Assembly: GCF_024362485.1 (NCBI RefSeq)
Contig: NZ_CP101456.1
Location: forward strand, 2,976,001-3,040,000
Direction of reading: 5' to 3'
DNA from: Natronobeatus ordinarius
Lineage (GTDB): Archaea > Halobacteriota > Halobacteria > Halobacteriales > Natrialbaceae
Length of the DNA stretch: 64,000 nucleotides
The translations under genes and the position numbers were made by a program. Below, piece after piece: positions 2,883 through 30,032 of this stretch. The notes under the pieces are model-generated. The model did not search any database. It saw only the letters and a list, made by a program, of their open reading frames with translations, and was not told the DNA's origin. The first letter of the stretch is position 1. The number at the start of each line of letters is the position of its first letter.

Positions 2883-3206
2883 ATGATAACGATGGTAGAG
2901 CTACTCGTCCGAGGGGACGGGTACAGCCACGAGGAGTTCGTCGAGCGCTGGCAGGGCGACCACGCCGAGATCGCGCGTGAACTGCCTGGACTGAAGCGAT
3001 ACAGCACGTCGGTGCCGACGAACCCCGACGACGTCGAGTACGACGGCGTCCTGCAGCTCACCTTCGAGAGCGAGGCGGCGATGAACGAGGCGTGGGCCTC
3101 CGAAGTCGGCGAGGAAGTCATGGCCGACGCCGCCGAATTCCTCGAGATCGGCGCGGGGCCGCGCATGGTCGTCGAGGACACGATCCACGTCGACGTCGAC
3201 GAATGA
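2883..3206 (+). CDS. EthD family protein
   Basis: A 107-residue protein. I prefer ATG 2883 (MITMVELLVRGDGYSHEEF) over the TTG nine bases upstream. The LLVR.DG.SHEEFVERW start and the middle ELPGLKRYSTSVP strand match the EthD dimeric alpha-beta barrel, a fold shared with muconolactone isomerase and often found in degradation operons. No catalytic residue can be assigned with certainty. Its last codon overlaps the ATG of the ThDP enzyme by four bases (ATGA), so the two are translationally coupled. A double-length relative lies at 34734-35456. Confidence 0.8.
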   Translation: MITMVELLVRGDGYSHEEFVERWQGDHAEIARELPGLKRYSTSVPTNPDDVEYDGVLQLTFESEAAMNEAWASEVGEEVMADAAEFLEIGAGPRMVVEDTIHVDVDE

Positions 3207-4900
3207 CGGGGACGGCAGACGCGCTCGTCGAGACGCTCGAGGAACTGGGCGTCGAGTACGTCTTCGGCTACCCCGGCGGGCGGGCCATCGAACTGCTCGA
3301 TCACGTTCCGGAGTCCGAGGTCGAACTCGTCCGTCCGCGCGACGAGCGCGAGGCGAGTGTCATGGCGGAGATGTACGGTCGACTCACCGGCCAGCCAGGC
3401 GTCCTGACCGGGCAAGGGCCGTGGATCGGTAGCCTCGGCATGATGGGGCAGATGGAAGCACGGCTCTCTTCCTCGCCGCTGGTCACACTCACGGAGGCCT
3501 CCGAACGCGGCGAGTACTCGACGCTCGCGCCGTACCAGCAGGCCCGCGGCGACTACGGCGGCTTCAGTCTCCCGAAGATCCTCGACGGCGTGACGAAGGA
3601 GTGGTGGTTCCCCCGGACGCCGACCGAGACGCTTCGTAGCGTGCAGCTGGCGTTCAAGCACGCCGAAGCTGGCCGGCCCGGCCCGACGGCGGTGATCCTC
3701 GACGGCGACGCGATCAACGCCGACGTCCCCGAAGAGTCCACCCCGCCCACGTGGGACGCACGGGAACAGACGCGGACGTGGGACGCCGCACCGACGAGCG
3801 AGGACGTCGCGGCGGCGGTCGAGGCGCTCGAGGCCGCCGACCGACCCGTGATCGTCTCGGGTAACGGCGTCCACGCGGCGCAGGCGTACGACGAACTCGC
3901 GGCCGTCGCGGAGGCGTACGACTGCGTCGTGGCGACCTCCTATCTGGGCAAGTCGACTTACCCCGAGACGGACGAGCGAGCGGCGGGCGTCATCGGCTCG
4001 TTCGGCCACGAGGGAGCCAATCGCGTCGTCAGCGAGGCCGACACCATCCTGGTCGTCGGCTGTCGCATGAACCCGATGGACACCAACTGGCAGGCCCCCG
4101 AGTTCATCCGTCCCGACGAGCAGACGATCATCCACGCCGACATCGACACCCGCAACGCCGGCTGGGTCTACCCTGCCGACGTCGGGCTGATCGGCGACGC
4201 GAAACAGAGCCTCGCCGCACTCGCCGACGCGGGCGAGGCGTCGAACGGCTGGGCGCTCGAGCGGGCGGCCGAGGCCCGCGAGTGGTTCACCGCGCCCGAG
4301 TGCGAGGACGACTCGGCGCCCATCAAGCCCCAGCGGGCGGCCAAGGAGATTCAGCAGGTCGTCGACGAGGACACCATCGTCACCGCCGACTCGGGCAACA
4401 ACCGCTTCTGGCTGCTCTACTACCTCCAGACGCCGGCCGTTCGTACCTACTTCGGCAGCGGCGGCGTCGGCGGCATGGGCTGGGCCAACCCGGCCGCGGT
4501 GTCGGCGGCCCTGACGACGGAGAAGGACGTCATCGCAGTCGCCGGCGACGGCGGCTTCACGATGACGATGACGTCGGTCGAGACGGCCGTCGAGTACGGC
4601 GTCGCCCCGACGTTCGTCGTCCTCAACGACACGAGCCTCGGGATGGTCCGCCAGATGCAACACGAGGATGACGACATCGCGGGCGTCGAGTTCCACGACA
4701 CCGACTTCGTGAAGGCCGCCGAGGCGTTCGGTGCGACTGGCGTGCGCGTCACCGAACCCGAGGACTTCGCTGACGCCTTGCTCGAGGCCAAGGCCGCCGA
4801 CGTCCCGTACGTCATCGACGTCCGGATCGACCGCGAGGAGGACATGGCCGAGACGCTCTCCTCCTCGTTCTACGAGACGGTCGGCGGGTTGCACGAGTGA
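3203..4900 (+). CDS. Thiamine-diphosphate enzyme, acetolactate synthase-like
   Basis: A 565-residue enzyme starting at ATG 3203, overlapping the EthD stop. The three-domain ThDP layout is clear: an N-terminal PYR domain (LGVEYVFGYPGGRAIELL), with Glu48 in RDEREASVMAE where the catalytic glutamate sits; a central domain with the VIVSGNGVHAAQAYDEL stretch; and a C-terminal PP domain with GDGG at 448-451 and Asn475, the ThDP/Mg motif. It most resembles acetolactate synthase large subunits, but no regulatory subunit is nearby. Genes in the same unit are EthD (before) and an NAD epimerase (after), so it is probably a catabolic 2-keto-acid decarboxylase or ligase. The exact reaction cannot be read from the sequence. 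Confidence 0.85.
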   Translation: MTGTADALVETLEELGVEYVFGYPGGRAIELLDHVPESEVELVRPRDEREASVMAEMYGRLTGQPGVLTGQGPWIGSLGMMGQMEARLSSSPLVTLTEASERGEYSTLAPYQQARGDYGGFSLPKILDGVTKEWWFPRTPTETLRSVQLAFKHAEAGRPGPTAVILDGDAINADVPEESTPPTWDAREQTRTWDAAPTSEDVAAAVEALEAADRPVIVSGNGVHAAQAYDELAAVAEAYDCVVATSYLGKSTYPETDERAAGVIGSFGHEGANRVVSEADTILVVGCRMNPMDTNWQAPEFIRPDEQTIIHADIDTRNAGWVYPADVGLIGDAKQSLAALADAGEASNGWALERAAEAREWFTAPECEDDSAPIKPQRAAKEIQQVVDEDTIVTADSGNNRFWLLYYLQTPAVRTYFGSGGVGGMGWANPAAVSAALTTEKDVIAVAGDGGFTMTMTSVETAVEYGVAPTFVVLNDTSLGMVRQMQHEDDDIAGVEFHDTDFVKAAEAFGATGVRVTEPEDFADALLEAKAADVPYVIDVRIDREEDMAETLSSSFYETVGGLHE

Positions 4901-25417: not shown

Positions 25418-25528
25418 AGCATTCTCCGAAGCGCCGTACTAAAAATCATGTGATACTCGTCGACCATCGGACTGGATCGCTGGTGAGACGATTCCCGATC
25501 GGCGAACTGATACGGATCATTGTAAGTT

Positions 25529-25568
25529 TTGCCGGTGATCGCTCAAGCGGATCAGCGATCACCGGTAA
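25529..25568 (+). repeat. Hairpin element 1 (15-bp stem, 10-base loop)
   Basis: TTGCCGGTGATCGCT pairs with AGCGATCACCGGTAA around a 10-base loop; the only mismatch is a G-T that would be a G-U pair in RNA. The same element with compensatory changes occurs at 28586-28625. It lies 64 bases before the thiolase ATG. Confidence 0.65.
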
Positions 25569-26807: not shown

Positions 26808-28237
26808 CGGGCCTGGGAATCGCGAGCGTCGGCGCGTACGCACCGCGCTACCGCCTGACTGCCGACGCCGTCACCGACGCCTGGGGGCAGTTCCACGGCG
26901 CCGGCGTCTCCGAAACGGCCGTCCCCGCGGGCGACGAGGACACGCTGACGATGGCCTACGAGGCCGCAACCCGCGCGCTCTCGGCCGGCGACGTCGACCC
27001 CGACGCGATCACCCACCTATATCTCGGGACGACCACCCCGCCCTACGAGGAGGAGGCGGTTACCGCCCGCCTCGCCAGCTTCCTCGGCCTTTCCGACGAC
27101 CTCGAGACGCGCCAGCTCACCGGCTCCACCCGCGCCGGCGTCGACGCACTTGCGACGGGCCTCGAGGCGGGCGAGGACGCGACCGTCCTCGTCGTCGCGA
27201 GCGACGCCCCCCGCGGCGCGCCGGACGACGAGCTCGAGCACGCGGCTGGGGCCGGTGCGGCCGCAGTGGTCCTGACGCCCGACAGCCCCGGTTCCCTGAC
27301 CGACGCCGCCGAGCACGTCGGCCTCTTCCCCGGTACCCGGTTCCGCCCCCGAGGATCGGCAGAGACGACCGGCCTCGGCGTCACCCAGTACGACCGTCGG
27401 GCGTTCACCGAAACCGTCGCGGCCGCGGCGGCGGGCCTCGAGGCCGACCTCGCCGAGGTCGACGCCGTCTGCCTGCAGGCAGCCAACGGCAAGCTCCCCT
27501 ATCGCGCCGCGGGTGCGCTCGGCGTCGACGCTGGCGCGATCCAGGCGGGCACCACCGTCCACGAACTCGGCGACACGGGCGCGGCGAGTGTCCTCCTCGG
27601 AGTCGCGAGCGCACTCGAGGCCGGCCACACCGACCTCGTTCTGCTCGGCTACGGCTCCGGCGGCGGCGCGACCGCGATGGCCGTCGACGCCGATGGGGTG
27701 GCCGTCGAGACCGACCTCGAGGGCGAGGCGAGCCTCGGCTACGGCGAGTACCTCCGGATGCGCGGCGACGTCACCCCCGGCGAGCCCGACGGCGGCGGCG
27801 CCTACGTCAGCGTCCCCAGCTGGAAGCGCACCATCCCCCAGCGTCACCGGCTCGTCGCCGGCCGCTGTACCGAGTGTGGCGCGCTCGCGTTCCCGCCCGA
27901 GGGCGCGTGTACGAGCTGTGGCGCGCTCGAGGAGTTCGAGGAAGTCGAACTCCCCGGCACCGGCACCGTGGAGGCCGCGACAGTCATCGGCCAGGGCGGC
28001 GCGCCGCCGGAGTTCGTCGAACAGCAGGCTCGGGAGGGCGCGTTCGTGAGCGCCGTCGTCGCCCTCGACGGACCCGGCGGCGAGGACGACGAGACCGTCT
28101 CGACGCCGACGCAGGTACTCACCGTCGGCGACGAAACGGTGGCCGTCGGCGACCGCGTCGAGGCGACGATCCGCCGGATCTACACCCAGGAGGGCGTGAC
28201 CCGCTACGGGTTCAAGATGCGGCTGCTCGAGGACTGA
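26804..28237 (+). CDS. HMG-CoA synthase-like protein fused to DUF35 zinc-ribbon/OB domain
   Basis: A 477-residue fusion starting at ATG 26804. Residues about 1-330 have the thiolase-superfamily layout of archaeal HMG-CoA synthase (MTGLGIASVGAYAPRYRL, DAITHLYLGTTTPPYEEE, LLGYGSGGGATAMAV). Residues about 345-470 are a DUF35 module with a zinc ribbon (Cys in RCTECGALAFPPEGACTSCG) and an OB fold. Where HMG-CoA synthase has its catalytic Cys, this protein reads GSTRAG with Thr109, so ordinary acyl transfer by this subunit looks unlikely. It is coupled to the thiolase by a four-base overlap. DUF35 may hand substrate to that thiolase. Confidence 0.82.
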   Translation: MTGLGIASVGAYAPRYRLTADAVTDAWGQFHGAGVSETAVPAGDEDTLTMAYEAATRALSAGDVDPDAITHLYLGTTTPPYEEEAVTARLASFLGLSDDLETRQLTGSTRAGVDALATGLEAGEDATVLVVASDAPRGAPDDELEHAAGAGAAAVVLTPDSPGSLTDAAEHVGLFPGTRFRPRGSAETTGLGVTQYDRRAFTETVAAAAAGLEADLAEVDAVCLQAANGKLPYRAAGALGVDAGAIQAGTTVHELGDTGAASVLLGVASALEAGHTDLVLLGYGSGGGATAMAVDADGVAVETDLEGEASLGYGEYLRMRGDVTPGEPDGGGAYVSVPSWKRTIPQRHRLVAGRCTECGALAFPPEGACTSCGALEEFEEVELPGTGTVEAATVIGQGGAPPEFVEQQAREGAFVSAVVALDGPGGEDDETVSTPTQVLTVGDETVAVGDRVEATIRRIYTQEGVTRYGFKMRLLED

Positions 28238-28302: not shown

Positions 28303-28563
28303 GACCACTACGAAAGCCCCTGCCGGCTCCGGTCGAGGGACTCGCTGCGCGCGTTCCCTCCGGTCACGTGCTTGCGTCGTCCGTCTTCCCGGAGCCGGCA
28401 GCCCCTTTTTCCCACCCGCTGTGAACGGCTACGCAGCCGACACGGGTGGGAATGAAAGGGGCTGACTCGCTCGATTCCTCCCGGACGACGTAAGCACCGC
28501 AACGAAGTGAGGAGCGCAACGAGGCCCGGAGGGTCGAGCGAGTCAGGGGCTTTCGTAGTGGTC
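28303..28563. repeat. 261-bp long palindromic element
   Basis: The ends are perfect 20-bp inverted repeats: GACCACTACGAAAGCCCCTG (28303-28322) and its complement (28544-28563). The two arms of about 100 bases are imperfect inverted copies of each other. Each arm carries its own hairpin: TGCCGGCTCCGG/CCGGAGCCGGCA (28321, 28389) in the left, and CTGACTCGCTCGA with TCGAGCGAGTCAG in the right. The centre pairs GCCCCTTTTTCCCACCCG with CGGGTGGGAATGAAAGGGGC. No coding capacity. It resembles a non-autonomous mobile element or a highly structured RNA. Confidence 0.7.
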
Positions 28564-28585
28564 TCATACCGATGGGTGTAGCCTC

Positions 28586-28625
28586 TTGCCGGTGATCGCC
28601 GTCCCGGTGGGGCGATCACTGGTAA
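28586..28625 (+). repeat. Hairpin element 2 (15-bp stem, 10-base loop)
   Basis: TTGCCGGTGATCGCC pairs with GGCGATCACTGGTAA around a 10-base loop. Compared with element 1, the loop-closing pair changed from T-A to C-G and one G-C became G-T, so pairing is kept while sequence changes. It lies 23 bases past the long palindrome. Confidence 0.65.
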
Positions 28626-28640
28626 CCAGTTACAACCGCC

Positions 28641-28895
28641 ATTATCGATCGCTCGACGTTCGAGTCAGGGGAGATCGCCGACCGGGTCGACGCGACCGAG
28701 AGTTCGACCTGGGCGACCCTCGAGCGGCTCCACGATCGCGGCCTCGTCGGAGACGAGGAGTCCGGCTGGACGATCGGCGATCTCGAGGCCGTCAAGAACG
28801 CGTTCGTCTACAGCTCGACGGTCTCGTTCCTCGAGGGGGAACTCGGGACGGAGTCGAGAGCGGAGTGGCTCGAGGCGACGGAGAAAGATGAGTAG
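28641..28895 (+). pseudogene. 5'-truncated winged-helix regulator remnant
   Basis: An open frame of 84 codons ending TAG at 28893, with no ATG, GTG or TTG before an in-frame stop at 28623. Its translation includes [20 protein letters not shown] followed by [20 protein letters not shown], a clear winged helix-turn-helix of the kind found in many haloarchaeal regulators. The missing start and the adjacent hairpin and palindrome suggest that the 5' end was lost in a rearrangement. It converges with the thiolase gene at 28896, separated by nothing. Confidence 0.5.
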
Positions 28896-30032
28896 TCAGG
28901 GCCGCTCGAACACGACCGCCACGCCCTGGCCGAAGCCGACGCACATCGTCGCGAGTCCGTACCGGCCGTCGCGGCGCTTCAGTTCGTGCAGCAGCGTCGT
29001 CGCGATGCGTGCCCCCGAGCAGCCCAGCGGGTGGCCGAGCGCGATGGCGCCGCCGTTGACGTTCAGCTTCTCGTCGTCGATACCGAGTTCGCGTTGACAG
29101 TAGAGGCTCTGGGAGGCGAAGGCCTCGTTGAGCTCCACGAGATCGAGGTCGTCGACGGTGAGGTCGGTGCCCTCGAGCGCGTTCTGCGTCGCGGGGACCG
29201 GGCCGATTCCCATCACGCGCGGGTCGACGCCGGCGACCCCGCGGGAGTGAACGCGCGCGAGCACCTCGAGGTCGTGCTCGTCGGCGTACTCGGCGCTGGT
29301 CACGAGCAGGCCGGCCGCGCCGTCGGTCAGCGGCGAGGCGTTGCCCGGCGTGACCGTCCCCGCGTCGTCGTCGGCGAACACGGTCGGAAGGCCGGCGAGC
29401 GTCTCGAGGTCGGTCTCCGGGCGCGGTCCCTCGTCGCGGTCGACCGTTCCGTCCTCAGTTTCGACGGGGACGACCTCGTCGTCGAACCGGCCCGCCTCCC
29501 AGGCGTCGACCGCGCGTTCGTGGGATCGCAGGGCGAACGCGTCCTGTCCGTCGCGGCCGACGTCGTACTTCCGGGCGACGCGTTCGGCGGTCGCGCCCAT
29601 CGGAAGTTCGTCCGCGTCGTAGTGCTCCTCGATGCCGGGGTGGAGCCAGCTCGAGAAGGGAATCCGGCTCATGTGCTCGACGCCCGCGACGGGGTAGACG
29701 TCGCCGTCGCCCGTCTCGATCGCGCGGGCGGCGTCGACGAGCGTCGTGAGCGAGGAGCCACACAGTCGGGTGGTCGTCGCCCCCGGCACCGTCTCGGGGA
29801 AGCCCCCGGCGAGCAGCGACTGGCGGGCGAGGTTCCGTCCTTGCTCTGCCTCCTGGTTGGCACAGCCGAGCCGGAAGTCGTCCCACTCCTCGGCCGGGAC
29901 GCCCGTGCGCTCGATCAGCGCCTCGAGCACCGTCGCGACGAGGTCTTCCGGGTAGGTCTCGGCGAGTCCGCCGTCTTTTTTCCCCTGTGGCGTTCGCACC
30001 GCGTCGACGAGTACAGCCTCGGCTTGCGTCAT
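28896..30032 (-). CDS. Thiolase (acetyl-CoA/3-oxoadipyl-CoA acyltransferase type)
   Basis: A 378-residue degradative thiolase; ATG 30032 ([20 protein letters not shown]) is preferred to GTG three bases upstream. The active Cys lies in [10 protein letters not shown], His in [12 protein letters not shown], and the final Cys in [10 protein letters not shown]. It resembles FadA/PaaJ, which splits 3-oxoacyl-CoA with CoA. It is divergent from the 3-hydroxyacyl-CoA dehydrogenase over 100 bases, completing a beta-oxidation set that could finish phenylacetate breakdown to acetyl-CoA and succinyl-CoA. Confidence 0.9.

Follow-up and report, generated by a model that had tools for sequence, protein, structure and literature searches.

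A nested palindrome of Natronobeatus ordinarius and its probable descent from an IS6-type MITE family of halophilic archaea

The palindrome and its neighbourhood

The window analysed here is a stretch of 64,000 nucleotides of contig NZ_CP101456.1 of Natronobeatus ordinarius. At 28303-28563 it contains a 261-bp element, located between two converging genes that end at 28237 on the forward strand and at 28896 on the reverse strand. The element has no transposase gene, and its open reading frames are all spurious. Its two outer ends of 20 bp each are 100% complementary, and we estimate that about 2e-5 such 20-bp pairs (at a spacing of at most 300 bp) would be expected by chance per 64 kb. Aligned with its own reverse complement, the element is 70.8% identical across its full length, confirming the original prediction of a 261-bp palindrome with perfect 20-bp ends.

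Both as RNA and as DNA, the element folds into three hairpins enclosed by one outer stem. The stem of arm 1 is formed by 28313-28332 and 28389-28408, that of arm 2 by 28454-28474 and 28534-28554, and the central pairing by 28409-28418 and 28443-28452, in agreement with the prediction that the arms fold on themselves and that the centre pairs again. The minimum free energy of the RNA was -174.7 kcal/mol for the plus strand (z = -12.8 versus shuffles) and -176.3 for the minus strand (z = -12.3), and that of the DNA fold was -99.9 (z = -11.9). None of 200 shuffled sequences matched the fold energy of the element. An Rfam scan of the window gave no match above the gathering score, and a tRNA scan found nothing.

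The core consists of two units of about 110 nt, here called U, which are arranged tail to tail. Each U unit is a hairpin of about 80-85 nt, starting with TG and ending with CA, between two copies of GCCCC, and the GCCCC pair in turn sits inside GAAAG...CTTTC (Table 1).

Table 1. Coordinates of the core, its parts and adjoining features in the window, and of the plasmid loci with U (positions within the respective loci)
Feature	Position	Strand	Basis
Core composite (outer stem, alpha hairpin, central hairpin, beta hairpin)	28303..28563		End-to-end alignment with full-length relatives; flanks unrelated
Left outer stem, family consensus (G)AACACCACGAAAGCCCCTG	28303..28322	+	Pairing and alignment
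Right outer stem, perfect inverted copy of the left stem	28544..28563	-	Pairing and alignment
U unit 1	28303..28414	+	Covariance model R1, 104.5 bits
U unit 2	28447..28563	-	Covariance model R1, 118 bits
Alpha arm hairpin TGCC...GGCA, flanked by GCCCC at 28316-28320 and 28401-28405	28321..28400	+	Sequence; arm clade 98/96
Beta arm hairpin, flanked by GGGGC at 28458-28462 and 28546-28550	28463..28545	-	Sequence; arm clade 98/96
Central hairpin TTTTTCCCACCCG...CGGGTGGGAATGAAA	28406..28457		Pairing, fold, alignment
R2, adjoining unrelated 83-bp palindromic repeat	28564..28646	+	34 or more sites in the genome, identity up to 93%
ORF, short winged-helix-like regulator remnant, 5' end within R2	28626..28895	+	Just as short in G016, where both repeats are lacking
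Plasmid loci with U and RPA-like gene	U ~2500-2610, gene ~3063-4098 (L106-L113); also L299 (G000:C2), L079

On its right, the core abuts R2, the sequence of which differs from U. R2 has a second match in the window (25520-25568) and is the higher-copy of the two repeat families in this genome. An R2-like piece also adjoins the second full copy of the core described below. The hairpin noted beside the palindrome is real, but it belongs to an unrelated repeat family and does not match the palindrome. Likewise, the neighbouring regulator gene is indeed represented by a short remnant frame. However, since this frame is equally short in the relative without either repeat, it was not broken by the element.

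Copies, terminal repeats and the IS6 link

A search for further copies, suggested along with the original prediction, revealed a second full copy at C1:3789410-3789678 in the same genome, together with a copy at C1:1571365 that has one arm and with additional U units, these copy numbers being lower bounds. Matches to the element were found in 41 of 61 related genomes, and the copies were spread across Halobacteriales. When 14 long copies representing many genera were aligned, their ends proved to be sharp, (G)AACACCACGAAAGCCCC...GGGGCTTTCGTGGTGTT, and their flanks unrelated. The orthologous intergenic gap of the nearest comparable relative (G016), in which the flanking gene is 85% identical to that of the window, contains neither the core nor R2. 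In G014, the gene order is conserved, hardly any gap is left between the genes, and there is no element. The sequence at 28303-28563 is a dispersed repeat. The absence of other copies together with freely varying arms, which would have spoken against the interpretation as a MITE or an RNA, was not what we found, as copies exist and their stems are compensated.

The repeated sequence extended beyond the core in Natronococcus pandeyae. In relatives, the core was found inside a larger element with the terminal inverted repeat (TIR) GGYNGTGTTYAG and subterminal stretches of about 47 bp. Of 33 good ends, 17 had the TIR start exactly 47 bp outside the core, and 42 bp was the second most frequent offset. 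Both TIRs reached 9/12 or more in 15 copies, some of which come from one species and are not fully independent. In 9 of these 15, an 8-bp target duplication was present, matching in at least 7 of 8 positions. Shuffling of left and right flank partners gave a mean of 0.39 duplications and a maximum of 4 in 2000 trials. The combination of TIR and duplication was also seen in Salinadaptatus (L066), Halopiger (L053) and G005 (L015). The TIRs of L066 (12/12 and 12/12), L174 and L053 matched the IS6 ends of L278 and L286 (see below). Examples from relatives are GTTACAGC (L174), TTCGACCT (L053) and GCACACAC (L165).

The idea that the palindrome is a miniature inverted-repeat transposable element (MITE) is supported for the family, because the core in relatives sits within TIRs and 8-bp duplications. 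At the window copy, both are gone: no recognisable TIR (best 8/12 and 8/12) and no target duplication (3/8) were found there, and the same was true of the full copies L151, L059 and L011. As a possible direct duplication at the window copy, two occurrences of (T/C)GACGTTC at offsets 38/95 were considered and rejected, since they agree with no terminal repeat and such a pair is to be expected by chance. For the window copy, only descent from the MITE family is proposed.

A search of eight genomes for transposases of the IS240/IS6 type identified two complete 697-bp elements of the IS6 family. The first (L278, in G012) has the TIR GGCGGTGTTCAG/GGTAGTGTTCAG, the duplication CTTAATTT, and a transposase that scores 191 bits as an IS6 family member (cut-off 125). 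The second (L286, in G018) has the TIR GGCGGTGTTTAG/GGTCGTGTTTAG and the duplication AAACGACG. G012 carries the MITE too, with GGTAGTGTTTAG/GGTCGTGTTTAG. The genome of the window contains two IS240/IS6-domain matches, the surroundings of which showed no matching TIRs.

We therefore think it probable that the window element is a worn, non-autonomous and non-coding IS6-type MITE of halophilic archaea with a core resembling BIMEs or REPINs. Since IS6 elements in the same genomes share the TIR type and the 8-bp duplication length, an IS6-family transposase may recognise the GGYNGTGTTYAG terminal repeats in trans and insert the element, which would duplicate 8 bp of the target. The hairpin pair would be a passenger, with arms that are self-complementary yet different from each other, and this divergence might keep each arm self-folding while avoiding a long perfect palindrome. 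The window copy would have arrived after the split from G016 and would then have lost its terminal repeats, with R2 on its right. For this locus, the result is a modest one, a decayed copy of a mobile element. Elements of this kind are already known, and what is new is the combination, in that the core of this MITE family resembles a REPIN.

Spread by IS6 elements alone does not account for all observations. IS6-type ends are established for the core in relatives, but not for the abundant single U units elsewhere. Because single U units in other families are without established IS6-type ends, U must also spread in another way. Among the matches listed, no autonomous element with U units on both sides at kilobase distance was noticed.

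The U unit and the origin of the pair

Solitary U units without a partner were common in other families. A covariance model built from 66 U units matched 36 of 59 genomes of the order, several of which had at least 47-63 matches, close to the ceiling of 63 candidates that were scored. In the U stem, 93.6% of cells were paired, and double changes occurred in 18 of 25 pairs. The number of double-change cells was 293, compared with 106 after shuffling, and sliding the partner destroyed the signal. This shows that pairing in the U stems is maintained, either by selection or by hairpin-templated correction. While the dispersal of the element is fairly ordinary, its hairpin unit has an unusually wide distribution and an unusually conserved structure. 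Phages gave no match to the tested element sequences, and the U 3' motif was not found in viral contigs. A literature search with this motif as sequence words returned no relevant paper, and none was found on haloarchaeal cruciforms, REPs or IS6 MITEs.

A tree of 36 arms split into two clades, alpha and beta, with a support of 98/96. In 13 of 15 two-armed elements, one arm was alpha and the other beta (p = 0.007 by shuffling of labels that were taken from the same arm tree). Among the mixed pairs were the two full copies of this genome as well as some from other families. Because the mixed pairs extend across genera and families, the alpha/beta pair is ancient, formed once or a few times. The arm tree disfavours the idea that both arms were recently inserted in each genome separately.

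The age of the pair bears on the possibility that an older palindrome received, in each of its two halves, a small mobile repeat comparable to SMR-A of Haloquadratum, with insertion at GCCCC and duplication of this motif. There are indeed two GCCCC copies in armed halves but one in naked halves (L056, L150, L157, L174), and SMR-A elements are known to target palindromes of other elements (PMC3119063). However, the alpha/beta pairing is common to several genera and families and hence not recent. Moreover, lost arms leave footprints (L056, L060, L064), and deletion between GCCCC repeats explains the naked halves equally well. One-armed and naked halves both exist, some with one clean GCCCC and some with leftover bases, which points to arm deletion, often between GCCCC repeats. 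We consider the insertion scenario a possible but rather unlikely account of the element, although insertion at GCCCC may have been the first origin of the dimer.

The placement of U on haloarchaeal plasmids suggests a working role there. In all eight plasmid matches that were inspected, U was located about 450-600 bp upstream of a gene for a protein of about 290 amino acids with a C-terminal OB fold, a domain resembling replication factor A at scores below the cut-offs. When loci were chosen by the OB-fold gene alone, U was present in 12 of 30 (E < 0.001), always on the gene strand and in 11 cases about 430-660 bp upstream. Five more of these loci had weak U matches (E 0.001-0.004) at similar distances. 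The non-coding leader of about 500 bp between U and the OB-fold gene is strongly conserved, and U begins this leader. The fixed position of U before the RPA-like gene offers a testable functional origin. U might be viewed as an order-wide archaeal REP-like family, independent of Y1/RAYT, that originated as a functional plasmid part, namely the upstream end of the leader before the RPA-like OB-fold gene, and this leader might be an origin of replication or transfer, or else a large leader RNA. Copies on chromosomes, the alpha/beta pair of the window among them, would then be dispersed derivatives, sometimes on IS6-type MITEs. We regard this origin as unlikely overall.

The plasmid arrangement, the extreme fold and the stem covariation could also be taken to mean that the element persists because it acts as a structured RNA or regulates neighbouring genes. 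Against this, the chromosomal copies adjoin unrelated genes, G016 and G014 have no element at this locus, an Rfam match is absent, and covariation can also result from hairpin-templated repair. A function of this kind is therefore improbable for the element.

REP-like hairpin families and REPINs have been described mainly from bacteria, where they are tied to RAYT transposases. A RAYT-like Y1 (HUH) transposase could mobilise the hairpin pair itself in the form of single-stranded DNA. The presence of two related inverted hairpins with strong stem covariation would fit, as would the recurrence of tail-to-tail U pairs in G061 and G089. However, a match to Y1_Tnp (PF01797) was missing from G067, G043, G060 and G074, each with 47 or more U matches, and present in G044, G045, G049, G073 and G084, all without a U match. 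The core copies bear 8-bp duplications, and we know of no Y1 enzyme that makes such target duplications. Given the absence of Y1 from four U-rich genomes and its occurrence in several that lack U, mobilisation as for REPINs is not the general answer, and for the element it is very unlikely. A transcription terminator or boundary would suit the position between converging genes, but this is hardly credible for an element that is far too large, has copies in other gene contexts, and is lacking in G014 with the same gene order and a short gap.

Relation to known mobile repeats and variants of U

The preferred reading, a decayed IS6-type MITE, agrees with known IS6-dependent MITEs in that the element is non-coding and multi-copy, with GGYNGTGTTYAG TIRs and 8-bp duplications in relatives, and in that the same genomes harbour autonomous IS6 elements whose ends match. 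It differs in that the centre is not random filler but a conserved pair of nested palindromes, and in that the window copy has lost its TIRs and duplication. With BIMEs and REPINs, the bacterial REP doublets associated with RAYT, the element shares an inverted pair of related hairpins, covarying stems and dispersal between genes. In contrast to these, U is much longer than a REP (about 110 nt), has no link to a Y1/RAYT gene, and 8-bp duplications accompany the spread of at least the core. An abundant and conserved hairpin family of Halobacteriales without a RAYT link, one form of which is on IS6-type MITEs, would represent a second route of spread.

Two types of small repeats from Haloquadratum walsbyi were also compared. 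SMR-A elements are about 110 bp long, have prominent inverted ends, tend to lie in palindromes of other elements, namely of PATEs, and are said to make no target duplication (PMC3119063). U resembles them in length, in its prominent inverted ends and in its palindrome setting, but its arms are flanked by direct GCCCC repeats, the comparison being one with the published description. PATEs, which are related to IS605, have near-terminal palindromes of the IS605 type and are without terminal inverted repeats or target duplications (PMC3119063), are likewise transposase-free, palindrome-bearing and haloarchaeal. The family of the window, however, has TIRs and duplications in relatives and relates to IS6. 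The TIRs in relatives speak against membership among PATEs.

Several variants of U were observed as well. In L023 and L031, which come from two different families, U lies just upstream of a cbiG-like gene in a cobalamin cluster. In one genus (L199-L213, G067), a U subfamily has CAAAG...CTTTG in place of GAAAG...CTTTC, and thus a compensated outer stem. This subfamily has a longer conserved context ending with CACCTCACGCCTCCCCAGCC and a second hairpin. Finally, some U arms contain further small palindromic inserts (L067, ~1266-1512; L071, ~1495-1663; L027, 1501-1669; L043), and some of the inserts within U arms have the form ...TCTCGTGATGACGAGAG...CTCTCGAACCACG, so that repeats are nested in repeats.
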